Below are positions 51,978-64,000 of a stretch of 64,000 bases of DNA, one piece after another. The stretch comes from Flavobacteriales bacterium UBA974 (GTDB lineage Bacteria; Bacteroidota; Bacteroidia; Flavobacteriales_D; Sanyastnellaceae). Where the stretch lies: the NCBI GenBank assembly GCA_002292405.1, contig DBBW01000025.1:14272-78271 (forward strand), in the 5' to 3' direction. The notes under the pieces are model-generated. The model saw nothing but the letters and a program-made list of their open reading frames with translations. It made no database searches and was not told where the DNA came from. A program made the translations under genes and the position numbers. How positions within the stretch are numbered: position 1 is the first letter of the stretch; each line of letters begins with the position of its first letter.

Positions 51978-53450
51978 ATGGCTAAAAAATTAACACCGAG
52001 AAGCGAAGATTACAGCAAGTGGTATAACGAAATTGTTGTTGATGCCGACCTAGCTCAGCACTCTGATGTAAAGGGCTGTATGGTTATTAAGCCATATGGT
52101 TATGCTATATGGGAGAGGATGAAGGATGTTCTTGATGGCATGTTTAAGGAGACTGGACATATGAATGCCTACTTCCCACTTTTCATCCCTAAGAGCTATC
52201 TCTCTAAGGAGGCTGCTCACGTGGAGGGGTTTGCGAAGGAGTGTGCTGTTGTGACTCACTATCGTCTGATGAACGACCCGAATGGGAAAGGACTGATTGT
52301 TGATCCAAAAGCAAAGTTGGAGGAAGAACTTATCGTTCGTCCGACTTCTGAGACGATTATTTGGAATACATACAGGAAATGGATACAGAGCTACCGCGAT
52401 CTTCCACTTCTAATTAACCAATGGGCGAATGTTGTTCGTTGGGAGATGCGTACCCGTCTTTTCCTCAGAACTACTGAGTTTTTATGGCAGGAGGGGCATA
52501 CAGCTCACGCGAATGAGCAGGAGGCTCAGGATGAGACCCGTCGCATGCTTGATATTTATGCCAAATTCACGGAAGGCTGGATGGCCATGCCAGTGATTAA
52601 GGGTGATAAAACTGAAAGCGAGCGTTTCGCAGGTGCTGAAAGTACGCTTTGTATCGAGGCAAGAATGCAGGATGGTAAGGCACTTCAAGCTGGCACATCT
52701 CACTTCTTAGGCCAAAACTTTGCCAAGGCTTTCGATGTTAAATTTGCGACTAAAGATGGTAAGCAGGAACTTGTTTGGGCTACTTCGTGGGGTGTTTCAA
52801 CACGCTTGATGGGAGCTCTTGTCATGACTCACTCAGACGACTCAGGGCTTGTTCTCCCTCCGAAGCTTGCACCTATCGAAGTCGTCATCGTTCCGATCTA
52901 CAAAGGGGAGGAGCAGATGGACGAAATAGTCGGAAAATGTCGCGAACTTGAAACAGAACTACGTGCAGCAGGAATCCGAGTAAAATTAGATGCTGACGAC
53001 TCAAAACGTTCTGGATGGAAATTTGCAGAATACGAACTCAAGGGAGTTCCTCTTAGGCTTGCCATTGGCCCTCGCGATCTCGCTAACAACTCTTGCGAAC
53101 TCGCACGCCGCGATACCCGCACGAAGTCTTTTGAATCTCTTGACGGGATTGCACCTCTTGTGCGAACTCTACTGGACACTATTCAATCAGATTTATTCTC
53201 TACAGCTCAAGATCGCATGGTTAAAAATACGGTCAATGTAGATACATGGGAAGAGTTCCAAGCTGCTATTCATGATGAGATGTTCGTTATGGCTCACTGG
53301 GATGGCACATCAGAAACAGAAGATCTTATTTCTGACGAGACAAAAGCTTCCATTCGTTGCCTCCCATTCGATGGAGATCTTACACCTGGAGTTTGTATAA
53401 AGACTGGAAATCCAAGTGCACGACGAGTTCTATTCGCTAAGTCTTATTAA
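51978..53450 (+). CDS. proS: Prolyl-tRNA synthetase, archaeal/eukaryotic-type
   Basis: The 490-residue class II synthetase has motif 2 [30 protein letters not shown] and motif 3 [28 protein letters not shown]. There is no INS editing domain between motifs 2 and 3. The C-terminal extension and final aromatic residue (FAKSY) are those of the short archaeal/eukaryotic type, which is common in Bacteroidota. It lies just upstream of tRNA-Glu, which has its own promoter. Confidence 0.96.
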
Positions 53451-53475
53451 AATACCATTTTTTTATCTAAGGTGC

Positions 53476-53505
53476 TTGTGAGAATAAAATCTCTAACTAT
53501 CTTTG
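53476..53505 (+). promoter_or_regulatory. Promoter of tRNA-Glu
   Basis: TTG (53476-53478), a 19-bp spacer and TATCTTTG (53498-53505) match the Bacteroidota consensus. The mature tRNA begins 11 bases after the element, leaving a short 5' leader of about 7 bases for RNase P. Confidence 0.8.
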
Positions 53506-53516
53506 CGCACCTATTT

Positions 53517-53591
53517 GGCCCGTTCGTCTAGGGGTTAGGACGCCAGGTTTTCATCCTGGTAGCAGGGGTTCGAATCCCCTACGGGCTACCA
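53517..53591 (+). tRNA. tRNA-Glu (anticodon TTC), CCA encoded; integration target
   Basis: Acceptor GGCCCGT pairs with ACGGGCT (first pair G-T). The D-arm and a five-base anticodon stem CCAGG/CCTGG enclose TTTTCAT (anticodon TTC). The T-arm is GGGG-TTCGAAT-CCCC. Discriminator A53588 and the CCA at 53589-53591 are encoded. The 3' end is the left attachment site of the module pair; the sequence after position 53587 belongs to the inserted element and supplies the last bases and CCA. Confidence 0.97.
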
Positions 53592-53593
53592 AA
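53576..53593 (+). repeat. attL core at the tRNA-Glu 3' end
   Basis: CCCCTACGGGCTACCAAA is identical to 57568-57585 at the distal junction. To its right the element's left-end sequence begins (AACTCACT...). To its left is the T-arm of the tRNA. Integration here keeps the tRNA intact. Confidence 0.9.
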
Positions 53594-53633
53594 CTCACTC
53601 CCTGCATCCTAACAGATGTAGGGTTTTTTCATT
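53587..53633 (+). repeat. Module left end, copy 1 (47 bp)
   Basis: This stretch, starting TACCAAACTCACT and containing the CTGCATC...GATGTAGGG hairpin, matches 56051-56097 at 44 of 47 positions by eye. The three changes are at 53601, 53624 and 53629. Beyond it the two modules are unrelated. Confidence 0.92.
53600..53629 (+). terminator. Terminator carried by the element just after tRNA-Glu
   Basis: CCCTGCATC pairs with GATGTAGGG (one G-T pair) around CTAACA and is followed by six T. It ends the tRNA transcript, replacing the original terminator that now lies at 57584. The copy in module 2 (56064-56087) has lost the full T-run. Confidence 0.9.
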
Positions 53634-53725
53634 CAAGATTTCCTGTAACCCACTAAACGTGGGCATAAAGTGTGAAAAACGTAGTTAGGTTTTTACATGT
53701 TTAGAAAAATGAGGGGACTACTTTC

Positions 53726-53748
53726 GGCACAACAATGGGAACAACAAA
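53726..53748 (+). repeat. Putative recombinase arm site, copy 1
   Basis: GGCACAACAATGGGAACAAC plus AAA: the same 23-base string occurs at 57498-57520 and, with changes, at 55970-55992. It contains the direct pair ACAACAA...ACAACAA, as expected for arm-type binding sites of a tyrosine recombinase. It ends 18 bp before the integrase ATG. There is also a small hairpin CCCAC-TAAAC-GTGGG at 53649-53663. Confidence 0.7.
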
Positions 53749-53766
53749 ACCCATTTTTGATTGCTG

Positions 53767-55101
53767 ATGAACATTTCATTTCAACTTTCACGACCTCAAA
53801 ACCCACAATCCTCTGTTGTTGCCCAGTTCATTTATGATGGCAAGAAGAGAAGGCTTGGAATGGGCTTGAGTGTCCCAAGTGATCGTTGGAATAAAGGCAA
53901 GCAAAGAATCAAAATCCTTAAATCTATCCACCGCAATGAAAGGATGGATTATGAGGTCCTAAACAAGCGTTTAGACACTCAAGAAGACTTGATTCATTCT
54001 ATCATCCATGAACTCACATTAGACCTTGGAAAGGCTCCTACATGGCTTGAGTTCAAAGAAGGATGGAACCGCAAGATGAAAGGCAAACAGAGAGCTTCAT
54101 CAAAGCATCTCACATTCAACCAGTGGGTGAAAGAGTTCATTGATGATGCACACAACAGATTGAATGGAAAGGGCAAGAAAATCAGCCACAGAACAATCCA
54201 GAAATACAAGACTGTTCATGACCAACTTTGTCAATATGCCATCAAGCATGTTGGACATCAAATAAGTTTTGAGAATTGGAATAGAGAGCTTCTGGATGGA
54301 TACAAAAGATTCAGAGCCAAGCAAGGAATAAGCATCAACACTATTGCCAAAGATGTGAAGGTGATTAAGATGTGGTTGAAAGAGTCCTACACAACCAATT
54401 TGCATGACAATAGAGCCCATATGGAGGCCTATTTCAGTCCCAAGCAAGTCAAGACACTCAAGGTGCATTTAACCCTTGAGGATTTAACCCTTTTAGAGGC
54501 TGTTAAACTGCCTTCTAAAGGCAAGTTTGGTCAAACCATCACTGCTCTTGAAACAGTCCGAGACTTGTTTCTTTTGGCCTGTTGGACAGGAGTGCGGATT
54601 TCTGATTTGAAGAAGTTCCCAGAGCTGATTAAAGATGCTTGGGATGACAATGGAGGAAGCTGTCCTGAATACATCACATTCATCCAAACCAAGACCAATT
54701 CACCAGTCAAGGTTCCAGTTCTTGATGCTGCTCAGAGAATCATCAATAAGCACAATGGAAGGCTTCCTGAAGCCATCAATGAGCAGAAGATGAATGCCAC
54801 TATTAAGAAGGTCCTTGAGCTTGCAGGAATCACAAGAATGGTTGAGACTCCATCAACCAGCATGACCGCTTCTAAAGCCCTCAGAAAGCCCATATATGAG
54901 CTTGTGACACTTCATACTGCAAGAAGGACATTTGCCACGAATATGCACTCCCTTGAGGTTCTTTCAGTCAATGAATTGATGTCATTAACTGGACATGAGT
55001 CTGAGAGTACTTTGAAGACCTATTTGAATATTGACAGGTTTGAGACTTCATCTAAAGCCTCAGAGAAGATCAGAAAGGCTTTGAATCAGGTTGCAGCTTA
55101 A
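53767..55101 (+). CDS. Tyrosine recombinase / site-specific integrase
   Basis: The 444-residue integrase has an N-terminal arm-binding region (RRLGMGLSVPSDRWN), a SAM-like core-binding domain (about 115-210) and a C-terminal catalytic domain with all six active-site residues: Arg277 (TGVRISDL), Lys309 (QTKTNS), His383 and Arg386 (HTARRTFATN), His410 (LTGHES) and Tyr419 (TYLNI). This is the Bacteroidota phage/CTn-type integrase layout. ATG 53767 is preferred over TTG 53761. It is presumably responsible for integration at tRNA-Glu of both modules. Confidence 0.95.
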   Translation: MNISFQLSRPQNPQSSVVAQFIYDGKKRRLGMGLSVPSDRWNKGKQRIKILKSIHRNERMDYEVLNKRLDTQEDLIHSIIHELTLDLGKAPTWLEFKEGWNRKMKGKQRASSKHLTFNQWVKEFIDDAHNRLNGKGKKISHRTIQKYKTVHDQLCQYAIKHVGHQISFENWNRELLDGYKRFRAKQGISINTIAKDVKVIKMWLKESYTTNLHDNRAHMEAYFSPKQVKTLKVHLTLEDLTLLEAVKLPSKGKFGQTITALETVRDLFLLACWTGVRISDLKKFPELIKDAWDDNGGSCPEYITFIQTKTNSPVKVPVLDAAQRIINKHNGRLPEAINEQKMNATIKKVLELAGITRMVETPSTSMTASKALRKPIYELVTLHTARRTFATNMHSLEVLSVNELMSLTGHESESTLKTYLNIDRFETSSKASEKIRKALNQVAA

Positions 55102-55161
55102 CATTCAACCGTTCGTTATAACCCTCCTTTTATTCATTTGAATTTTGATGCAAAATTTAAC

Positions 55162-55503
55162 TCAATGAACATAAGCAGTGCCACCGTGAAAATACTCCTT
55201 TTTTCCGTTCCTCCCTTTTGAAACACGGAAATCACCTCCTCGTTCACTTCCTCCAATTTCAAAACAATGTTTTCCATGACCTCCGATTGAGACTGTTTCG
55301 ATCACTTCCTTTTTGTACCAAATAACAATAGAAAAACGCTTGGTGGATCTGTTGTGAACACAAAGTTCTTTCCCATATTGTTTTTCCCCAGTTGTTGTGA
55401 TGGTGTTTTCTTGACTTGTTACATTGGTGTCACCAATTGATAATTCCTGAGCTGAAAGAGAAACAGAAAGCAAACAAGCTAAAGCAGTAAATAGAAGTCT
55501 CAT
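55162..55503 (-). CDS. Small secreted protein of unknown function in module 1
   Basis: The 113-residue protein has a signal peptide (MRLLFTALACLLSVSLSAQ). The mature part is beta-rich and hydrophilic with Gly/His/Lys patches (GGHGKHCFEIGGSERGGDF) and two cysteines. I recognise no family. It is convergent with the integrase gene and is the only cargo-type gene of module 1. It could help the host envelope or another purpose; nothing indicates which. Confidence 0.65.
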   Translation of the reverse strand: MRLLFTALACLLSVSLSAQELSIGDTNVTSQENTITTTGEKQYGKELCVHNRSTKRFSIVIWYKKEVIETVSIGGHGKHCFEIGGSERGGDFRVSKGRNGKKEYFHGGTAYVH

Positions 55504-55589
55504 GGTTGTGATTTTAGACTCACAATTTACATCAAATTAGTGTCATGTGAAATAAGTGCTTAACCAACTTGACGCTGTCAATGTGTTGA

Positions 55590-55800
55590 TACTTGATTGA
55601 GTCCGAACTTTGCTACGCTCAGCATGAGTTCTTCCCCTGACACTGAGAGGGTGAGTCTAAAACGAACCCTCATCACACAGGGAATAGGAACCTCCTTAAT
55701 GACACGCTCGGCCGTCTTAAACGGTCCGAGCTTACACAGGCAAAGGAAAGATGTAACAGGACCCAGACACAAAGTTCAAGTCCAGTGAGCGGCCATCTTT
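55590..55800. other. Unassigned G+C-richer segment with strong hairpin
   Basis: This part of the 610-bp gap between the secreted-protein and esterase genes is visibly richer in G+C than its surroundings. It contains a strong hairpin: GCTCGG CCGT loop CTTAA ACGG T CCGAGC at about 55707-55732. Short frames are open on both strands (64 codons leftward from 55772, 63 codons rightward from 55597), but neither has a recognisable product. It may be a structured RNA or the remnant of a gene. Confidence 0.35.
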
Positions 55801-55836
55801 TTGCTCTAATTTTTGATAGGGGGAAGGGGTGTTAAA

Positions 55837-55880
55837 AATCAAGCTTAATGAGACGTGAGAACGTCGTGTCATTCTTGATT
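55837..55880 (+). other. Conserved imperfect hairpin in right end, copy 1
   Basis: Outer arms AATCAAG and CTTGATT, inner AATGA/TCATT and the apex ACGT-GAGA-ACGT (GNRA-type loop). In copy 2 (57365-57408) two of the three bases in the 5' bulge differ while every paired base is the same, so the structure is kept. It is not followed by a T-run. The role may be in DNA processing or as RNA. Confidence 0.6.
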
Positions 55881-55969
55881 CACACCGTCAGTAATTGAGT
55901 AGGGGAGTTGCTGAATTTATCAACAGCATCAATCCCTTTGATAAGAGACAGAAAAAAGTGGCTGAATTC

Positions 55970-55992
55970 GGCACAACAATAGGAACAAAAAA
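55970..55992 (+). repeat. Putative recombinase arm site, copy 2 (diverged)
   Basis: GGCACAACAAT followed by AGGAACAAAAAA, matching the site at 53726 at 21 of 23 positions. It is located 48 bp before the degenerate core of module 1's right boundary. Confidence 0.6.
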
Positions 55993-56039
55993 TAAAAGTA
56001 ATAGTCAGTAATTTCTGTATTTACTGAGGTGTGTGTAGA

Positions 56040-56057
56040 CCCCAATGGAATACCAAA
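56040..56057 (+). repeat. Internal, degenerate att core between the two modules
   Basis: CCCCAATGGAATACCAAA matches the attL/attR core at 14 of 18 positions. It is the junction where module 1's right end meets module 2's left end. The mismatches lie in the tRNA part, so it would no longer rebuild a tRNA and may be recombination-poor. Confidence 0.85.
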
Positions 56058-56097
56058 CTCACTCTCTGCATCCTAACAGATGTAGGGATTTTGCATT
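56051..56097 (+). repeat. Module left end, copy 2 (47 bp)
   Basis: Matches 53587-53633 at 44 of 47 positions. The hairpin arms are kept, but the T-run after the stem is interrupted (GGGATTTTG), so it is a weaker terminator than copy 1, consistent with not sitting behind the tRNA any longer. Confidence 0.9.
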
Positions 56098-56113
56098 GGT
56101 GATTTAAATAAGA

Positions 56114-57289
56114 TTAAAGCTGCACTGTTAGCCCTTGGTTCTCAACCATGAATTCAAAGCCCAATGACCACAAAGGATCACCGTTGACGTTAATTCCCCA
56201 AATTCCATGACCTCCATCTTCAATTGTGTAAAGAGTACAGATGTTGCCGTTAGCATTGTACGTGCTGTTCAACGAGGTAGCTTCAGAGTATTCGACTGTC
56301 GGGTCTGCAGTACCATGAACGATCATGAGTGAGGCGTCGTTTGAATCGAAACGGACAGCACCGTCCAGAAGCGTCAAAATGTCCACCGAAGCGCGACCAC
56401 CCCAAAAGTCCAACACTGTCTGAATTTGAAATTCTTGCGACAAATTTGTAGACTGTAATGTTGGGTCTTCACTGACGGATAATTCATCAACATAATCATC
56501 AGTGTTTGAAGCACCCATGGCGATTGATATAAATGCACCTGCTGATCCTCCAAGAACTGATATATGATTCTCATTAATTTCATATTCGTCAGCTTGGCTC
56601 ACTACCCAACGCAAAGCTGCCTTGGCATCTCTATTTGCAGGGTACATGGCCAAAACTTGATCTATATTTTGCCCATCTGGCAAGAGGCCGATCGCATTCA
56701 ACCAAGACGTGGGAACAGTACCGTGCTGAGACGCCAATCGGTAGTTGATTGAGAATACTACCCAACCCCTTGATGCGTATTGGTTGGAAAGTTCAACTAG
56801 AGATTCCTGCTCGTTGCTTCCACCAAAGAAACCACCCCCATGAATGATGACAAGTGCTGGTCGGCTCTCCTCTTGGTTGTCTGGCAAATACACATCTAAC
56901 TCCAGAGAAATGGTATCCATGATTGGACCTCCCCATCCATTGTGACTCAAACCCGATCCGTATACCACATTGTCCTCGAACAAAACTTCAAAGGTGGAAT
57001 TGGTCCATACACTTGGATTTGTTTGCTCACAGTTTTGACCGAAGTATCCAAGAACCATCAAAACATCGTTTGTACCCACCGCGCTATCTCCATCCAAATC
57101 GTACTCACCGCAATCTTGATAGCAACCAAAATATGCAAGAAGATTTAAGACATCACTCACCTCAACAAGCCCACTTTCATCAAAATCTCCAGGGCACGAA
57201 GCCCATGTATAATCGATAGTCAGTAAGATGCTGACTGCTCCGATTAGAATTGATTTCTTATCCATGATTGATTTGAAAATGTTTTTCAT
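56114..57289 (-). CDS. Secreted carboxylesterase-type hydrolase with dockerin-like N-terminal repeats (module 2 cargo)
   Basis: The 391-residue protein has a signal peptide (residues 1-31) and a tandem dockerin-I/EF-hand-like pair (CPGDFDESGLVEVSDVLNLLAYFG and YDLDGDSAVGTNDVLMVLGYFG, residues 32-88). An alpha/beta hydrolase domain follows with the oxyanion motif HGGG (150-153), nucleophile Ser249 in GGSAG, Asp329 in HGTADP and His361. The enzyme probably cleaves esters at the surface or outside; no T9SS sorting domain follows. The gene runs opposite to the integrase and fills the module. Confidence 0.85.
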   Translation of the reverse strand: MKNIFKSIMDKKSILIGAVSILLTIDYTWASCPGDFDESGLVEVSDVLNLLAYFGCYQDCGEYDLDGDSAVGTNDVLMVLGYFGQNCEQTNPSVWTNSTFEVLFEDNVVYGSGLSHNGWGGPIMDTISLELDVYLPDNQEESRPALVIIHGGGFFGGSNEQESLVELSNQYASRGWVVFSINYRLASQHGTVPTSWLNAIGLLPDGQNIDQVLAMYPANRDAKAALRWVVSQADEYEINENHISVLGGSAGAFISIAMGASNTDDYVDELSVSEDPTLQSTNLSQEFQIQTVLDFWGGRASVDILTLLDGAVRFDSNDASLMIVHGTADPTVEYSEATSLNSTYNANGNICTLYTIEDGGHGIWGINVNGDPLWSLGFEFMVENQGLTVQL

Positions 57290-57364
57290 GATGTTTAAGA
57301 TTTAGTGTTTTCTCAAATATACAATCTTATCATCTGTTTCTTGATATGGTGAAGGGGTGTTAAA

Positions 57365-57408
57365 AATCAAGATGAATGAGACGTGAGAACGTCGTGTCAT
57401 TCTTGATT
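57365..57408 (+). other. Conserved imperfect hairpin in right end, copy 2
   Basis: Same pairing as at 55837-55880; the only changes are in the unpaired bulge (ATG in place of CTT). Confidence 0.6.
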
Positions 57409-57497
57409 CACACCGTCAGTAATTGAGTAGGGGAGTTGCTGAATTTATCAACAGCATCAATCCCTTTGATAAGAGACAGAAAAAAGTGGCTGAATTT

Positions 57498-57520
57498 GGC
57501 ACAACAATGGGAACAACAAA
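57498..57520 (+). repeat. Putative recombinase arm site, copy 3
   Basis: Identical over 23 bases to the copy just upstream of the integrase (53726-53748), although 3.8 kb away and in a module without an integrase gene. This supports the idea that one recombinase serves both modules. Confidence 0.7.
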
Positions 57521-57562
57521 TGTTAGTAACAGTCTGTAATGCCTGTATTTACTGAGGGGTGT

Positions 57563-57585
57563 GTAGCCCCCTACGGGCTACCAAA
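57563..57585 (+). repeat. attR: core with perfect inverted arms
   Basis: GTAGCCC-CCTAC-GGGCTAC (57563-57581) is a perfect 7-bp inverted repeat with a 5-bp spacer; the right arm plus CCAAA belongs to the core shared with attL (57568-57585). In attL the left arm is instead the tRNA sequence CGAATCC. The inverted-arm form is therefore the element side of the site. Confidence 0.85.
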
Positions 57586-57607
57586 AAAGATCTAAACGGG
57601 TCTTTTT
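57584..57607 (+). terminator. Probable original terminator of tRNA-Glu, displaced by the insertion
   Basis: AAAAAGATC pairs with GGTCTTTTT (one T-G pair) around TAAACG, followed by further T. It starts directly after the distal copy of the tRNA 3' end, where the native terminator would lie before the modules came in. Confidence 0.75.
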
Positions 57608-57668
57608 TTTATGCCCTGAAAGTACTGATTTTACTGGTGTTTAGAGGATTTTGAGAGGTGAAAAGTGC

Positions 57669-57690
57669 GTAGCCCGATAGGGGCTACTTT
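57669..57690 (+). repeat. Second core-like inverted repeat beyond attR
   Basis: GTAGCCC-GATAG-GGGCTAC has the same 7-bp arms and the same 5-bp spacer length as the attR core 106 bp upstream, with a different spacer sequence. It is followed by TTTT and could also terminate transcription. It may be a leftover attachment site of an older element. Confidence 0.6.
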
Positions 57691-57755
57691 TATTTTGTTA
57701 AAGTATTGTTTTATAGATATTTATTGAAATTCCGATGAATATCAAACTTTCAAAA

Positions 57756-57777
57756 ACGACCGTCAAAACCACCGTCA
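57756..57777 (+). repeat. Paired short direct repeat, possible arm site of a lost element
   Basis: GACCGTCA and CACCGTCA are separated by AAAC within ACGACCGTCAAAACCACCGT. Paired direct repeats of this kind precede some Bacteroidota integrase genes. It lies between the orphan core and the inverted tRNA fragment. Weak on its own. Confidence 0.3.
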
Positions 57778-57784
57778 TTTAGAT

Positions 57785-57812
57785 GTAGCCCGCGACAGAT
57801 TCGAACCCCTGC
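57785..57812 (-). repeat. Inverted remnant of the tRNA-Glu 3' end
   Basis: Read on the - strand, these 28 bases match 53562-53589 of tRNA-Glu at 23 positions, including GCAGGGGTTCGAATC and CGGGCTAC; the mismatches are contiguous in the 3' half of the T-stem. The rest of a tRNA is absent and the T-stem cannot pair, so it is not a working gene. Nothing else is seen in 57691-57858. Confidence 0.75.
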
Positions 57813-57858
57813 TTTGTGGTTAGTTTTTGATGTAAATTGTGAGCCAAAAATCACAGAC

Positions 57859-59721
57859 ATGAAACTTCTTTTTACAGTTTTATTTTGCCTACTAATTGAC
57901 AGTTTTTATTGCCAAAATTGGGAACAACTCAGTAGTTATAACGGGGTAGGTCGTCATCATCCTATAACTGTTGCATCTAATAATTTTGGATATATGATTG
58001 CTGGTCAATCTGCTACTTTTAGCAATAACCTAGATGATGTGTATAGATATGACCCAAACATTAATGAATGGATTCAAATTGATCCATTTCCTGGAAGTGC
58101 ACGAGGATACGGTTATGGGGTGTATGATGATAATATTGCATTCTGCGGATTTGGATCGGATAATTTTGGCTATCCAAATGATTGGTGGCGTTTTGATATG
58201 AATAATGAAGAATGGACACAACTTGCATCATTTCCTGGAGAAGGAAGGAACCACCCTGCTATGGTTTTAGAAAGCAATAAAATTTTTGTGGGATTAGGAA
58301 GTAATTTAAACGGAAATTTAGATGATTGGTGGGAGTATGATATTAATTTAAATTCTTGGACTCCACTTCAGTCATTCATGGGTCTTCCAAGACATCACCC
58401 GTATTATTTTGGCATTGATAACAAAATCTATGTTGGCTTTGGTCATGGGAATGACGTCCTATCTCAGTTAAATATATTTAATGACTTATACGTTTGGGAT
58501 ATAGAGCAAAACACGTGGTCTCAGCTAAATAATTTTCCAGGAGAAGGGAGAGTCGCAGGAACTCAATTTTCAGCGAATGGAAAAGGATATATTTTAAGCG
58601 GTGATGGAGAAGACCATATTAATCTAGATTATGGAGAGTTTTGGGAATACAATCCATTAAATGATACATGGTCTGAATTACCACCTCATCCTGGTGGAGC
58701 ACGTTGGGCACCAGGGACATTTATTATTGATTGTCACGTGTATCTTACAAGTGGTTTAATAGGTGCAACAGGTTCGTTTCCTTCTGATCTTTATAGGTAT
58801 TCAATTAATTCTGCATGCGGATGCACAGATGATGCAGCATTTAATTTTTCAGAATTCGCAATTAATAATGATGGATCTTGTTGTTATGTCGAAGGTTGTA
58901 CTGACGAAAATGCTCTAAATTATTTGCCAGAAGCGTGTTTCGAGAATAACTCTTGCATATCAATTGATTTAGGTTGTACAGATCCTAGCTATTCTGATTT
59001 TGATATGAATGCAAATTTAGAGGTGTTCACAGGAGGCCCAACAGATTTGTCTGAATATGGAACGGGAGGATATCACTATAATGATGTATGGGACATGGTG
59101 TTTAGCGTTTCTGAAGACACATTTCTAAGCTCCATTGATGTAAATGCTGAAAATTCAGGAACCATTACTGTAGATCTAACTTCATCAAACGGAACTATAA
59201 TAAATCAACTAGACTTTGACATTAATGGAGGGTGGAATACATTGGAAATGGAAACTTTAATTCCAGAAGGAAATAATTATTTTATAGGCATAACTGGAAA
59301 CAATGAAAATATTGGATTATATCGTAATGACGCTGTTCCGACAGGTGTGTTCCCTATCCAAATTGCAGATCGAATTACAATAACAGGTAATACTACTGAC
59401 AATCCCACATCTTATTACTATTATTTTTATAGTTGGAGTATTGACGAAAGCTGCGTGGGAACTATGTCAAGTAGTGAAATGAAATCGTCAAGCATTTTAG
59501 TTTATCCCAACCCAACATCAAACAACCTAACAGTTGATTTGGGTGATTTGAATGGGGTTAATATAACAATTAAGCTATATGATTCATTAAGCAAGCTGGT
59601 CTTTGAGAAGACATCAACATCAACTCTAATGATTGATGTTTCTGGCTTTCCTAAAGGTATGTATTCACTTGAGCTTTCAAAGGATGAACACGTATTGAGG
59701 AGTCAAGTAATTATTGACTAA
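57859..59721 (+). CDS. Secreted Kelch-repeat protein with T9SS sorting domain
   Basis: The protein is 620 residues from MKLLFTVLFCLLIDSFYCQ (signal peptide). About five or six Kelch-type repeats follow (blocks such as WEQLSSYNGVGRHHP, WTQLASFPGEGRNHP, WSQLNNFPGEGRVAG) predicting a beta propeller, then two Cys-rich CTD-type repeats (GCTDDAAFNFS, GCTDENALNYLPEACFENNSC), a beta domain and a type A T9SS domain (VYPNPTSNNLTV). The frame is open from 57814, but ATG 57859 gives the signal peptide. It lies directly beside att remnants and could be older cargo. Confidence 0.87.
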   Translation: MKLLFTVLFCLLIDSFYCQNWEQLSSYNGVGRHHPITVASNNFGYMIAGQSATFSNNLDDVYRYDPNINEWIQIDPFPGSARGYGYGVYDDNIAFCGFGSDNFGYPNDWWRFDMNNEEWTQLASFPGEGRNHPAMVLESNKIFVGLGSNLNGNLDDWWEYDINLNSWTPLQSFMGLPRHHPYYFGIDNKIYVGFGHGNDVLSQLNIFNDLYVWDIEQNTWSQLNNFPGEGRVAGTQFSANGKGYILSGDGEDHINLDYGEFWEYNPLNDTWSELPPHPGGARWAPGTFIIDCHVYLTSGLIGATGSFPSDLYRYSINSACGCTDDAAFNFSEFAINNDGSCCYVEGCTDENALNYLPEACFENNSCISIDLGCTDPSYSDFDMNANLEVFTGGPTDLSEYGTGGYHYNDVWDMVFSVSEDTFLSSIDVNAENSGTITVDLTSSNGTIINQLDFDINGGWNTLEMETLIPEGNNYFIGITGNNENIGLYRNDAVPTGVFPIQIADRITITGNTTDNPTSYYYYFYSWSIDESCVGTMSSSEMKSSSILVYPNPTSNNLTVDLGDLNGVNITIKLYDSLSKLVFEKTSTSTLMIDVSGFPKGMYSLELSKDEHVLRSQVIID

Positions 59722-59767
59722 TTACTAAGCTTCAATTTGCTTCAAAGCCTCTCTAACCTTCCTATTT

Positions 59768-60355
59768 ATGAAACTATTGTTCATCATTTTAAGTGTCATC
59801 TTTCTCCTCTTCATTGGGAGCCAATTGTTGTTCTTCAAAAGCAGTCACAACATCGAAGAGTATAAGTATGTCGTTATAAAAGAATATCCAGGTTTTGAAA
59901 TTAGAAAATATGAAGCAAGTTTATTTACTTCTGTAGAACTAGATACAGATGATTATAAACAAGCATCTAGCAAGGGTTTTTCAATTTTAGGAGGATATAT
60001 TTTTGGTAAGAATGAAAGTAAAGAACAAATTTCAATGACTTCTCCAGTAGCGATGACTTTAGAAGCAGATGAAACAACAATGATGTTTTTAGTTCCTAAA
60101 AAAAAATCAAAAGAAGGCATGCCAAAACCAGTAAACTCTAACATTAAGTTCATAGAAATTCCTGAAAAGCAAATGGCTGCGATTACTTTTCGTGGATGGG
60201 CAAGCAATCAAAAAATAGAGAAGTACAAGTTAGAATTGGTCAGGCTTTTGGATCAAAAGGGAATTCAACATATGAATAAGTTCTTGGTTTTGGGATACAA
60301 TCCTCCTTATGAAGTTTTATTTCGTAAAAATGAAATTGTTGTAGAGTTGGAATAG
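59768..60355 (+). CDS. SOUL heme-binding family protein
   Basis: The 195-residue protein has an N-terminal membrane anchor (LLFIILSVIFLLFIGSQLLFF). The SOUL/HBP domain follows from residue 35: YKYVVIKEYPGFEIRKYEASLFTSVELD, ISMTSPVAMTL and the C-terminal NPPYEVLFRKNEIVVEL. The family binds heme or porphyrin-like ligands; the role in bacteria is unclear. It lies 46 bp after the Kelch protein gene. Confidence 0.9.
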   Translation: MKLLFIILSVIFLLFIGSQLLFFKSSHNIEEYKYVVIKEYPGFEIRKYEASLFTSVELDTDDYKQASSKGFSILGGYIFGKNESKEQISMTSPVAMTLEADETTMMFLVPKKKSKEGMPKPVNSNIKFIEIPEKQMAAITFRGWASNQKIEKYKLELVRLLDQKGIQHMNKFLVLGYNPPYEVLFRKNEIVVELE

Positions 60356-60428
60356 CGCTATTCAAAATTTGGACAGCTTTACACACGATAACTTACCCTT
60401 TTGCTTTTATTTTACTTAATAGGCGTTT

Positions 60429-60617
60429 TTATTCTTCAGCTATTTCACAATCAGATCCTGGAGGTGAACACTCCATAATAGCATCATCAAGATTATTTGA
60501 ACTAATAACGTATATGTAAGGCTCTCCTCCTTCAATTCCACAAACACAATTATATTCTTTTCTACAGGAACAAAGTGTTAAGGATAATAAAGCTATAATT
60601 AGGAATCGTGATTTCAT
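60429..60617 (-). CDS. Small Cys-rich lipoprotein
   Basis: The protein is 62 residues from MKSRFLIIALLSLTLCSC, a lipoprotein signal (lipobox LTLC). The mature part has a further five cysteines (CRKEYNCVCGIEGG, MECSPPGSDCEIAEE), suggesting disulfides or metal binding. The frame is open to 60680, but those residues are not signal-like. It lies just downstream of the MerC-like gene on the same strand. Confidence 0.55.
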   Translation of the reverse strand: MKSRFLIIALLSLTLCSCRKEYNCVCGIEGGEPYIYVISSNNLDDAIMECSPPGSDCEIAEE

Positions 60618-60652
60618 ACCCGCAATATAACACAGCGAGACTGCGTCATATT

Positions 60653-61063
60653 TTATTTTTCCGTGGAGTGTACACAACACTCTTCTCCTTGTAATCTGCA
60701 GTTTCGAATGTTATAAATATGTAAAAAAACAATTGCTAAGGCAGGAAGATATTTTACGTGATGTGATATAGAGACTAATATCAAACTTTCATTTAATATC
60801 GACAAGGTTAACAAAGCCCAACAAAACCAGAATAGGTATTTCAGACTTGTAGCTTTTTGTTTTTTGTTTGTCTGAAGAATTGCAAAGAATGTGACAACTA
60901 AGAAGATGTAATCTATTGATCTCCACCATAAAGGTGCCTGGCTACAACAGCTTTGAGAACAAATGTGTGCTATAAAGAGTAATGGTGTTATTGCACAATG
61001 AACCATACAAGTTATACTTGCTACTACACCTATTTTATCTGATAAATTTTTTGTTACTTGCAT
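60653..61063 (-). CDS. MerC-domain membrane protein
   Basis: The 136-residue protein has four hydrophobic segments and the MerC motif VASITCMVHCAITPLLF with a Cys-x3-Cys-like pair (C and HC) in the first helix, plus CSQSCCSQ and a C-terminal Cys/His tail (GEECCVHS). MerC moves mercury in classical mer operons, but stand-alone Bacteroidota members next to a Fur-type regulator are more likely to handle another metal such as zinc. It is divergent from the Fur-family gene. Confidence 0.8.
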   Translation of the reverse strand: MQVTKNLSDKIGVVASITCMVHCAITPLLFIAHICSQSCCSQAPLWWRSIDYIFLVVTFFAILQTNKKQKATSLKYLFWFCWALLTLSILNESLILVSISHHVKYLPALAIVFLHIYNIRNCRLQGEECCVHSTEK

Positions 61064-61085
61064 AATTATTTAGTTATACATTCGC

Positions 61086-61110
61086 ATTATCGCAACTAAG
61101 TTGCAATAAT
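61086..61110. promoter_or_regulatory. Operator-like palindrome between the MerC and Fur-family genes
   Basis: ATTATCGCAACT-A-AGTTGCAATAAT is a palindrome over 25 bp with only one mismatched pair (plus the centre base). It lies in the 81-bp gap between divergent starts, with the size and symmetry of a Fur/Zur box. It is the obvious binding site for the adjacent regulator, controlling both genes. Confidence 0.75.
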
Positions 61111-61144
61111 ACGGTAAATATTTTTAGAATCTCACGCATATTTT

Positions 61145-61531
61145 ATGGGAATAATCAGAAAGACTAAACATTTTCAAAAAGTTCTTGATCAATTTTCAAA
61201 ACAGGAAAATGCTATAAGCGCTAATTATCTAGTTTCACATTTTAATGATGAAATGAATAAGTCCACTATATATAGGATACTAGATAAACTTGAAGATGAT
61301 AATATAATTCATTCATTTGTTGGGGTGCATGGATTAAAATGGTATGCTAAATGTTTAGATTGCACAGTCAAAGAGCATAATGATAATCACCCACATTTTC
61401 AATGTGAAAAATGTAATGAAGTGCAGTGTATAAGTCAGACGAACAATGAATCGAAGATAATTGACGCCCAATTTCTCGTCAAAAGTGTTTTTTTGACTGG
61501 AATATGTAATAGATGCTTTTCTACCTGTTAA
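61145..61531 (+). CDS. Fur-family metal-responsive repressor (Zur-like)
   Basis: The 128-residue protein has an N-terminal winged helix (QENAISANYLVSHFNDEMNKSTIYRILDKLEDDNIIHSF) and a C-terminal Fur dimer domain with the histidine site HPHFQCEKC and structural zinc pairs CEKCNEVQC/CNRCFSTC. The protein is a little shorter than typical Fur. The metal cannot be told from sequence; the MerC neighbour suggests zinc or a thiophilic metal. Confidence 0.88.
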   Translation: MGIIRKTKHFQKVLDQFSKQENAISANYLVSHFNDEMNKSTIYRILDKLEDDNIIHSFVGVHGLKWYAKCLDCTVKEHNDNHPHFQCEKCNEVQCISQTNNESKIIDAQFLVKSVFLTGICNRCFSTC

Positions 61532-61608
61532 ATCTAATTACTCAGAGATACTGATGATGTTTCGCCTCACTTACTTTTTATTTAACTCAAAGCTTTGAGT
61601 AAATTTCA

Positions 61609-61896
61609 ATGATGGATAAAAAACTACTGACAGAAAGAGAAATTGATCGAATTGTAGAAATGGCTTGGGAAGATAGAACTCCCTTTGAGGCCATTTTGTT
61701 TCAATTTGGATATCCAGAAAATGAAGTCATTAAGTTAATGCGAAGTACGCTTAAGGAGTCTAGCTTTAAGCGTTGGCGTATGCGCGTGAACAGTGGTGTC
61801 AGTCAGAAACATTTAAACAAGAGAAGCACTGAAATCAAACGGTTTAAATGTTCGCGTCAAAGGACCATTTCAGGAAATAAAATCAGCAAACGCTGA
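61609..61896 (+). CDS. DUF2805 / TIGR03643 family protein
   Basis: The 95-residue protein has the family pattern REIDRIVEMAWEDRTPFEAILFQFGYPENEVIKLMR...SFKRWRMRV. The C-terminal 35 residues are basic (Lys/Arg-rich), so nucleic-acid binding is possible. In Bacteroidota and some proteobacteria it travels with photolyase/cryptochrome genes, as here, where the photolyase starts 62 bp later. The function is unknown. Confidence 0.85.
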   Translation: MMDKKLLTEREIDRIVEMAWEDRTPFEAILFQFGYPENEVIKLMRSTLKESSFKRWRMRVNSGVSQKHLNKRSTEIKRFKCSRQRTISGNKISKR

Positions 61897-61958
61897 CTTC
61901 GATAAAAAAACAAAACATCTATTTTCCTCTCATTGGTTTATACGTTTAATTCGAGGTT

Positions 61959-63440
61959 ATGAAACGAGTGAATATTTTATTTCCGAATCAATTGTTTCAA
62001 GAATCTCCACTTTTTGATAACAAGGATCCTTGGTATGTTGTGGAAGAATTTCTGTTCTTCAAACAATATCCTTTTCACAAGCAAAAAATTGCATTTCACA
62101 GAGCCACAATGAAACGTTATGCAGATTTTCTTCAAAAAGAGAAAAATTTGGAGGTTTACTATGTTGAATCTACCGATAAAATTTCAGACATTAGATTGCT
62201 GATCCCTCACTTGAAACTTCAAGGTGTTGAAAGCTTGCACTATATCGATCCCATCGACAATTGGCTTCAGAAAAGACTCAATCAAGGTTTACTCGATTTA
62301 GGAATTCAAGGTAAGCAGTATGCTTCACCTATGTTTTTAAATTCTAAAGAAGACCTCGCTGTCTTTTTCAGGAGTGACAAAAAAAAATACCACCAAACGA
62401 CTTTTTACATTGAACAGCGTAAAAAGCGGAACATCTTAATGGATTCGGACGGAAAGCCCATGGGAGGGAAGTGGACCTTCGATACTGAGAATAGAAAGAA
62501 ATATCCTGCAAAGAAGATTCCCCCCTCAATTCAGTTTCCCGAGACCGATTCTTACTTTGAAGAAGCAAAATCTTATGTTGACACCAATTTCTCAAATCAC
62601 TTAGGTGAACTCACAGGTTATTCATTGTATCCCACCAGTTTTTCAGAGTCGAGAGATTGGCTCAACCAATTTTTAGAGCAGCGATTTTCTGAGTTTGGGA
62701 TGTATGAAGATGCCATTGTAGCAGAAAACTCTATTTTAAATCACAGCGTTTTAACTCCCATGCTTAACGTGGGATTAATCACCCCCAAAGAGGTCTTACA
62801 TGCTTGCTTGCAGTATGCAGGAATAAACTCTGTGCCTTTAAACTCTACGGAAGGATTTGTAAGACAAATTGTAGGATGGAGAGAATTTATTAGAGGTGTT
62901 TATGAGAGTAGAGGGAGTGAAGAAAGAACCACCAATTTTTGGAAATTTAAGAAGAAAATTCCAGCTTCTTTTTACGATGGGTCAACAGGTATTCTGCCCA
63001 TTGACCAAACGATTAAAAAAGTTTTGAAAACAGGATATTGTAACCACATAGAACGTTTAATGGTGTTGGGGAATTTTATGATGTTGTGTGAATTTGATCC
63101 AGATGAAGTTTACAGGTGGTTTATGGAACTTTTTGTTGATTCCTATGATTGGGTAATGGTGACCAACATCTATGGTATGAGTCAATTTTCTGATGGAGGG
63201 TTAATGGCTACGAAGCCATACATCAGCGGGAGTAACTATATTATGAAAATGAGCAATTATAAAAAGGGTGAATGGCAAGCTATTTGGGATGGTCTTTTTT
63301 GGCGATTTATGGATACCCATCGTGGTTTCTTTTTGTCTAACCCCAGGTTAGGTATGCTTGTGCGTATGTTTGATAAAATGCCTTATGAGAAGCAAAAACA
63401 GCATCTTGAGAATGGCCAACGTTATTTGCAGACACTTTAA
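61959..63440 (+). CDS. Cryptochrome/photolyase-family protein, PhrB/CryB-type, Fe-S loop missing
   Basis: The 493-residue protein has an N-terminal antenna-like Rossmann domain (NILFPNQLFQESPLF) and a C-terminal FAD-binding helical domain with YCNHIERLMVLGNFMMLCEFDPDEVYRWFMELFVDSYDWVM and GMSQFSDGGLMATKPYISGSNYI. This is the prokaryotic (6-4) photolyase group. Relatives have a Cys-x2-Cys loop and a further Cys after that last motif that bind a 4Fe-4S cluster; here the region is short (MSNYKKGEWQAIWDGLFW) and has none. The role is probably light-driven DNA repair. Confidence 0.9.
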   Translation: MKRVNILFPNQLFQESPLFDNKDPWYVVEEFLFFKQYPFHKQKIAFHRATMKRYADFLQKEKNLEVYYVESTDKISDIRLLIPHLKLQGVESLHYIDPIDNWLQKRLNQGLLDLGIQGKQYASPMFLNSKEDLAVFFRSDKKKYHQTTFYIEQRKKRNILMDSDGKPMGGKWTFDTENRKKYPAKKIPPSIQFPETDSYFEEAKSYVDTNFSNHLGELTGYSLYPTSFSESRDWLNQFLEQRFSEFGMYEDAIVAENSILNHSVLTPMLNVGLITPKEVLHACLQYAGINSVPLNSTEGFVRQIVGWREFIRGVYESRGSEERTTNFWKFKKKIPASFYDGSTGILPIDQTIKKVLKTGYCNHIERLMVLGNFMMLCEFDPDEVYRWFMELFVDSYDWVMVTNIYGMSQFSDGGLMATKPYISGSNYIMKMSNYKKGEWQAIWDGLFWRFMDTHRGFFLSNPRLGMLVRMFDKMPYEKQKQHLENGQRYLQTL

Positions 63441-63464
63441 GTCTCTTGATTTAGTAAACAAATA

Positions 63465-64000
63465 ATGATGAACAAGTCAGACGGTAAAATACATATTGTG
63501 GGTGCGGGTGTAAGTGGACTTGTCGCTGCCAAAGTGTTAGAATCTCATGGGTGTCGTTCTGTTGTGATTGAACGTACAGATCGAGTTGGTGGGAGAGTGA
63601 AAACCGATTTCCTAGATGGATTTCAGTTAGACCATGGGTTTCAAGTGCTTCTTACGTCCTATCCAAAAGCTCAGAAGTATCTTGATTACAAGGCTTTAGA
63701 ATTACAGAAGATTTTACCTGGTGCATCGGTTTTTTTGAACAAGAAGCAAAAAATCATTGGAGACCCTTTGAAGGCCATTTCTTTTTTGTTTCCCACCCTG
63801 TTTTCTGGAATTGGGTGTTTTTCAGATAAACTAAGAATCTTACAGCTTAATCATATTTTAAAAAGAAAAAAATTGTCAGAAATTTTCTCTGGAACAGAAA
63901 TATCTACATCTTTATATTTACAACAATTTGGATTTTCAAATGACATTATCAGAGATTTTTTCACGCCGTTTTTTGGTGGAATTTTCCTAGAATCAAAACT
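63465..64000 (+). CDS. FAD-dependent oxidoreductase (amine oxidase / desaturase-like), partial
   Basis: 178 codons are visible before the window ends. The N-terminus has the Rossmann FAD motif IHIVGAGVSGLVAAKVLESHG, the ERTDRVGGRV second motif and GFQLDHGFQVLLTSYP. This fits the protoporphyrinogen-oxidase/phytoene-desaturase-like family often found next to PhrB-type photolyases. It starts 24 bp after the photolyase gene, so is probably in the same transcript. Two adjacent ATG codons (63465, 63468) are possible starts. Confidence 0.85.
   Translation, partial: MMNKSDGKIHIVGAGVSGLVAAKVLESHGCRSVVIERTDRVGGRVKTDFLDGFQLDHGFQVLLTSYPKAQKYLDYKALELQKILPGASVFLNKKQKIIGDPLKAISFLFPTLFSGIGCFSDKLRILQLNHILKRKKLSEIFSGTEISTSLYLQQFGFSNDIIRDFFTPFFGGIFLESK

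Follow-up and report, generated by a model that had tools for sequence, protein, structure and literature searches.

Organization of the cassette array at tRNA-Glu

We examined a 64,000-nucleotide stretch (the window) of contig DBBW01000025.1 from the marine Flavobacteriales bacterium UBA974, a metagenome-assembled genome (MAG) of 28 contigs and 61.6% completeness, in which a row of small units with repeated ends follows a tRNA-Glu gene. This tRNA-Glu(TTC) gene (53517-53591, +) is the integration target, and its 3' end forms the core region shared by the units. The Rfam tRNA model matched at 53517-53588 with 62.8 bits, in agreement with an earlier note on this DNA that had named it as the host site, and a scan of 53400-58000 gave nothing beyond the tRNA above the Rfam gathering score. 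The attL-like core CCCCTACGGGCTAC (53576-53589, +) marks the junction between the tRNA and unit 1, and is followed by the left end of unit 1 (53590-53760, +) with a terminator-like hairpin (53600-53623) and a 26-bp repeat (53723-53748) that may act as an arm site. Unit 1 encodes a tyrosine recombinase of 446 aa in a complete open reading frame (ORF; 53761-55101, +) and, as its cargo, a 113-aa protein with a signal-peptide-like start and no family match (55162-55503, -), whose upstream region and signal peptide form a leader module (55475-55536, -) with a second copy at 57826-57887 (+) and further ones at relatives' cargo genes. The right end of unit 1 (55805-56057, +) consists of a hairpin segment, R1 (55805-55909), and a segment R2 (55910-56057) with a copy of the arm-like repeat (55967-55992) and a degenerate core (56040-56053, +; 4 of 14 positions mismatched), at which unit 1 meets unit 2.

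Unit 2 opens with a left end (56050-56105, +) in which a terminator scan placed a terminator-like hairpin (56063-56088). Its cargo is an esterase-like alpha/beta-hydrolase of 391 aa with a BD-FAE match and a signal-peptide-like start (56114-57289, -), and its right end (57333-57585, +) again comprises R1 (57333-57437), R2 (57438-57585) and the arm-like repeat (57495-57520). This end carries the intact core GTAGCCC-CCTAC-GGGCTAC (57563-57581, +), a 7-bp inverted repeat around a 5-nt spacer. The lengths of units 1 and 2 (2,464 and 1,528 bp; 3,992 bp together) and their gene content, a complete recombinase with a small secreted protein and an esterase without a recombinase, are as the earlier note gave them, and none of these three genes is a transfer, conjugation/mobilization, phage-structural or replication gene. 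Other ORFs in the two units overlap the three genes, except two at 55578-55788 (64 and 63 aa) that overlap each other. The units of the window all run in one direction and share one layout: core, left end, cargo, and a right end made up of the 26-bp arm-like repeat and the core. Units 1 and 2 had been taken for a stand-alone tandem pair, which has to be revised: they open an array at tRNA-Glu that extends further. A further right-end copy with an intact core and no tRNA lies about 7 kb on in the same genome, shortly beyond the end of the window (window-equivalent 64702-64850), and a truncated copy was found on another of its contigs (C9).

Repeated ends and core sequences

The ends of units 1 and 2 had been described as exactly shared. 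Both units do have the repeated ends, but not in identical form: the 47-bp left end agrees at 44 of 47 positions and the 227-bp right end at 209 of 227, with an exact run of 122 bp between the two right ends. Longer repeats can be aligned, of 66 bp at 85% (53576-53641 and 56040-56105) and 253 bp at 91% (55805-56057 and 57333-57585), and the 26-bp repeat starts at 53723, 55967 and 57495. Cores lie at 53576, 56040 and 57568 as claimed, but the middle one has the mismatches given above, so that intact cores flank the pair of units as a whole but not unit 2 by itself. The exact core occurred twice in the window, against 0.06 occurrences expected with up to 2 mismatches.

Genomes are labelled G### below (G000 is the MAG of the window) and genera g# (g1 is its own genus). 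A profile of R2 gave 45 matches in the examined loci, 37 of them reaching the core end. The earlier note had raised the possibility of a host repeat that recurs without cores. What we found mostly speaks otherwise: most genomes of the genus contain the repeat, and GGGCTAC, the tRNA 3' end, closes 21 of the 37 copies (14 of 24 outside g5 and 7 of 13 in g5), although the other 16 lack it. Copies that end in GGGCTAC join different left ends; the terminator scan flagged hairpins in the left ends of units 1 and 2, and the others were judged by eye. The intact core of g1 is the one given for unit 2, while the kind found with tRNA-Arg(CCT) reads GTAGCTC-TGCCG-GGGCTAC. In 697 kb of loci, which were picked for carrying the repeat and so do not give a genome-wide rate, the inverted-repeat core in slightly degenerate form occurred 14 times: 10 exactly at the end of R2, 2 at 106 bp past it and 2 elsewhere in G012. 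It did not occur in 20 simulated first-order Markov sequences of 697 kb. Among the 9 contigs with at least two R2 copies (E<1e-5), 8 had all copies on a single strand. A named genome collection had five records with the exact core TGTAGCCCCCTACGGGCTAC; these are contigs of G001, G002, G008, G011 and G012 that had already been analysed, and therefore provide no independent evidence.

Folding was evaluated on the second window copy of the right end. R1 forms a strong hairpin (z about -4), and R2 folds barely better than its shuffles (z -1.33 and -1.17; 24 and 26 of 200 shuffles equally good). R1 also occurs in two g18 genomes (L092:6771-6851; L093) upstream of a gene that we take to be leuS-like. 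Since it is missing from many core-bearing ends and has this second setting, R1 was dropped as a part of the recombination site; it is possibly an RNA or regulatory repeat.

Distribution of the right end and variation of the tRNA-Glu locus

We searched the right end in 14 genomes of the genus, 114 of the family and 299 sampled from the order, scoring at most two candidates per genome at order level. It was present in 11 of the 14 genus genomes, own included (G003, G006 and G010 gave no match), and its core-side half in 9 of these 11, being absent from the matches in G004 and G005. At family level 18 of 114 genomes had it: 11 of g1, 5 of g5 in diverged form, and 2 of g18 with the R1 segment only. 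The order-level search also gave 18 genomes, 16 of which were the same g1 and g5 genomes, and the remaining two matches were just 27 and 21 bp long.

Comparison of the tRNA-Glu loci, which the earlier note had proposed, revealed different content at the same tRNA gene. The interval between tRNA-Glu and the conserved gene F62 measures 22.3 kb in G000 (including 1,963 N), 28.8 kb in G005 and 8.7 kb in G006, which together with other cargo in G008 (see below) means that one site holds varying content, as in additive islands. The conserved right flank common to the own genome and G006 encodes proteins that are 87%, 77% and 82% identical, presumably UmuD, UmuC and RluB to judge by their sequences. 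G006 and G004 have different sequence directly after tRNA-Glu; G006 has no right-end match, and that of G004 lies outside the core part.

Right ends were also observed before a gene that we assume to be MutS2-like in G007, G013, G001 and G002 (L050, L067, L070 and L071), with different cargo or none. The interval before this gene is likely a second, non-tRNA integration spot.

The tyrosine recombinase of unit 1

The recombinase matched the Arm-DNA-bind_5 and SAM-like domains, with Phage_integrase just below the cut-off. Motif offsets suggested R279, K311, H385, R388, H412 and Y421 as the candidate catalytic set, given the roles that we presume for these motifs. At E<=1e-40 it was found in 3 of 150 genomes, the own one included. 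At E<=1e-10 it was found in 12 of the 114 family genomes, where the other nine proteins are 26-38% identical. A collection of 5.8 billion proteins contained 120 matches at E<=1e-20, 13 of which are 50-98% identical to the recombinase; the 98% match has no source given and may be the window's own protein. Among solved structures no sequence matched at E<=0.001.

Phage and plasmid origins were considered and rejected, the recombinase having only distant matches in 47 of 50,697 phage records and 30 of 72,556 plasmids, all below 60% identity. Two viral contigs encode relatives of the recombinase (42% and 36% identity), and the exact right-end core had no match among viral contigs. The own genome encodes a second tyrosine recombinase, 27% identical to the first (L114, G000:C10:30414-31748), in a stretch with two copies of the shared type IX secretion system (T9SS) tail described below.

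Evidence for a probable movement of the units

Junctions lie precisely at the core, units are shuffled among relatives, and the same kinds of unit stand at two tRNA genes. G092 (g5) and G096 (g11), of different genera, have 1,160 bp in common at 94.7% identity; in G096 this DNA begins at the final 16 nt of tRNA-Glu, in G092 at a right-end core, and the next stretch common to both is 74% identical. In G008 a recombinase 98% identical to that of unit 1 lies at tRNA-Glu with a cargo protein of 928 aa instead of 113 aa, and the DNA similarity ends at the recombinase stop codon, resuming about 12 codons into the signal peptide of the next gene.

The second tRNA gene is tRNA-Arg(CCT). G011 has a 92% identical recombinase after it, on a contig that ends within the recombinase, and another G011 contig has a right end of the unit 1 type with the tRNA-Arg core; we infer that these two contigs belong together. 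In G001 tRNA-Arg(CCT) is followed by a start like that of unit 2, at 87.6% over 137 bp, where the contig breaks off. In G011 and G012 the 26-bp repeat is the point of fusion between a left and a right end, giving a unit free of cargo. Cargo genes also appeared in changing company: a MerC gene with a Fur-like gene was found in four genomes, and so was a gene for a 126-aa protein (with an MGS domain in the copies scanned), both beside partly different neighbours.

Secreted cargo with shared leader and tail modules

The cargo was sampled as 83 ORFs of at least 100 aa and free of N from chosen ranges of 13 contigs, some of them not strictly between two cores. Por_Secre_tail was matched by 17 of the 83, and 40 looked exported by a simple rule devised in this analysis, compared with 8 of 55 ORFs at window positions 1-53500 (Fisher p 4.8e-5). 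We then clustered leader and tail DNA of 545 ORFs from the examined loci, grouping the bodies into families by single linkage; 12 of the loci had been picked because of a matching leader or tail, and a few clustered ORFs look miscalled. One leader-DNA cluster comprised 32 genes from 10 genomes with at least 18 unrelated bodies, and one T9SS-tail-DNA cluster 18 genes from 9 genomes with at least 6. Of the 263 pairs with similar leaders, 86 had unrelated bodies, as did 76 of the 275 pairs with similar tails. Conversely, one mature protein can follow different signal peptides, as seen for LSNESI... in G000, G001 and G003 and for NACKDC... in G000 and G011. That unrelated secreted genes have common leader DNA, often a type IX secretion tail, and different middles is the least expected feature of the system.

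We rejected the idea that the leader is exclusive to these arrays: 19 of its 30 places in the genus are on contigs that also match the right end or the arm, and others are in islands, some near other tRNA genes. Four gene-rich stretches, L116 (G003:C30), L120 (G012:C1), L119 (G001:C83) and L115 (G009:C90), have the modules outside R2-type arrays. Their many secreted-looking genes start with MRLFITALACLISV or similar and often end in DDGSVEKKFIVE or VLRSQVVLE, and the L120 stretch holds tRNA-Leu and tRNA-Met.

Unit 3 and its surroundings

Unit 3 begins with a left end of another type (type C; 57582-57813, +), followed by a Kelch/NanM-like protein with Por_Secre_tail (57859-59721, +) whose gene has the leader at 57826-57887 and whose tail DNA (59503-59761) is common to other genes. 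The remainder (59768-64000) encodes SOUL, MerC, Fur-like, DUF2805 and photolyase-related proteins and, by eye, a small lipoprotein-like gene and the start of an oxidoreductase-like gene. The left end contains a second perfect GTAGCCC-N5-GGGCTAC (57669-57687) with the spacer GATAG and a T-rich run after it; G011 has a like palindrome with the spacer GATAA 106 bp after a right end. This palindrome may be a terminator or an alternative core. Also in this left end is an inverted 29-nt fragment resembling a tRNA 3' end (57785-57813, -), 83% complementary to the end of tRNA-Glu; with at most one mismatch, the sole match of its tRNA-like part in the 14 genus genomes was itself.

Interpretation and alternative explanations

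Our interpretation, which we hold with good though not full confidence, is that the tRNA-Glu gene anchors an array of small att-bounded cassettes in which the tRNA-proximal unit has a tyrosine recombinase and the next units have none, and which would grow by accretion with movement in trans. The accretion or cassette reading of the earlier note is upheld by the differing content of relatives at tRNA-Glu, the same kinds of unit at a second tRNA gene and the junctions at the core. The observation of that note was confirmed in part and its interpretation received partial support, while the satellite role that it gave to unit 2 stays conjectural. In the proposed mechanism, the recombinase would bind the 26-bp arm-like repeats and the GGGCTAC half-sites and presumably cut within the 5-nt spacer. 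Single units or groups could then be excised as circles and inserted again, either into a matching core or at the 3' end of the tRNA. The recombinase of unit 1 would mobilize the cargo-only units in trans, arrays would grow by accretion, and the terminator-like left ends might keep transcription of the tRNA punctuated. In a possible second layer, near-identical leader and T9SS-tail DNA would allow the middle of a secreted gene to be swapped by homologous recombination.

Several observations weigh against this interpretation. The core between units 1 and 2 is degenerate, and cores are altered or truncated in 16 of the 37 core-end copies. With the recombinase in 3 of 150 genomes, many arrays have no visible helper, in MAGs that are incomplete and contigs that break at repeats. 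In G096 no right end follows the shared cassette, some right-end copies are away from tRNA genes, as near the MutS2-like gene, and G101C81 has two copies head to head. Leader and tail modules are also present beyond these arrays, in some cases close to other tRNA genes, and so do not mark this array alone. Finally, the 122-bp exact run between the window right ends could, as far as the letters can tell, reflect misassembly of the MAG.

The altered cores and the few relatives with a visible integrase would also suit remnants of a few decayed ordinary integrative elements at the tRNA, that is, integrative and conjugative elements (ICEs), integrative and mobilizable elements (IMEs) or prophages, left over in the manner of cis-mobilizable elements (CIMEs) and moved now only by homologous recombination between repeated ends. 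The inverted tRNA-like fragment and second palindrome of unit 3, as in old composite islands, agree with such decay, and accretion of CIMEs has already been described (PMC5704250, in excerpt). We nevertheless regard it as unlikely, because core-bounded similarity between genera points to more recent site-specific movement, the same unit types stand at two tRNA genes, the recombinase ORFs are free of stops and 98% identical in two genomes, and the three genes of units 1 and 2 include none for transfer, phage structure or replication. That a dispersed host repeat caused a wrong join in the MAG is very improbable. Copies away from tRNA genes, the 122-bp run and the several contigs of relatives that end in or near the repeat speak for it, but the window copies differ (209/227) and adjoin distinct cargo, and similar arrays are present in other MAGs of the own genus and g5.

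A strict integron, with IntI and attC cassettes, would also have one recombinase next to cargo units in tandem, and the recombinase does match the NCBIfam model for site-specific tyrosine recombinase/integron integrase. This match is weak, at 40.9 bits with a cut-off of 220, so that IntI is not indicated; the target is a tRNA 3' end and the core a 7-bp inverted repeat. An attC site is not indicated either, as R2 folds weakly and R1, which folds in the one copy evaluated, is missing beside many core-bearing ends. Model score, site structure and folding thus disfavour this explanation, which we consider hardly credible. A looser analogy is tentative and, in our view, rather doubtful: an integron-like system without IntI and attC, specialized for the secretome, in which one tRNA-targeting recombinase serves arrays of cassettes whose genes often join an invariant leader and signal peptide to a middle that can be exchanged and an invariant type IX tail, and by which a lineage of marine Bacteroidota would re-equip its export modules with new exported domains.

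If the proposed mechanism holds, the locus offers a compact and testable example of additive islands at tRNA genes that are built up unit by unit with no conjugation or phage genes involved, one with recombinase, target, site structure and cargo-only units all in view. Genes with an invariant leader, a changing middle and an invariant tail would connect the turnover of such islands with the set of proteins that marine bacteria export. With the conserved right end as a tag, cassettes can be searched for in unannotated genomes and metagenomes.

Comparison with known systems

The earlier note had suggested an undescribed kind of element, which is not supported: tRNA-anchored cassettes and accretion are in print (PMC7771536, PMC10872708, PMC5704250), and accretion of att-bounded cassettes at a tRNA is a known kind, represented by additive islands and CIMEs. 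Among the matches listed in the open-access literature, to which the search was directed, no paper treats this family in Flavobacteriales. What follows about published systems is based on excerpts of the papers cited. Exchange of surface-protein domains is the topic of a study on Porphyromonas (PMC5266723). Cassettes anchored at tRNA genes with repeats of part of the tRNA are described in Actinomarinales (PMC7771536) and Methylophilaceae (PMC10872708), and additive islands in Alteromonas (PMC4119200, PMC5217437, PMC4033161). These additive flexible islands resemble the present array in having cassettes at tRNA genes, repeats of a tRNA part and strain-variable content (PMC7771536, PMC10872708, PMC4119200); here too, direct repeats of the tRNA 3' end bound the inserted cassettes, the middle repeat of the window being degenerate. 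The excerpts describe neither a conserved right end with an arm-like repeat and palindromic core, nor a recombinase-bearing first unit that shares its ends with cargo-only units, nor shared signal-peptide and tail modules, all of which are features of the present array.

In accretion involving CIMEs, ICEs and IMEs, elements that lack a recombinase retain their att sites next to one that encodes an integrase (PMC5704250), as the recombinase-less units here lie beside one with an integrase. A CIME has a functional attL and attR; unit 2, likewise without a recombinase, has an intact right core and a left core mismatched at 4 of 14 positions. ICEs and IMEs have conjugation or mobilization genes, whereas the three genes of units 1 and 2 include none, the rest of the array being annotated in part, and the two units measure 1.5-2.5 kb. 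Tycheposons are likewise tRNA-anchored and marine, with a tyrosine recombinase and cargo, but are described as large, at 4-200 kb (PMC10872708). The dif/pdif modules of Acinetobacter are also rows bounded by tyrosine-recombinase sites, and are attributed to a recombinase encoded elsewhere (PMC12907356). Their sites are those of XerC/D, whereas here the core derives from a tRNA 3' end and the recombinase is in the first unit. Like an integron, the array would combine a recombinase and a site of entry with a row of cassettes that can be exchanged, while target and site structure set the two apart.

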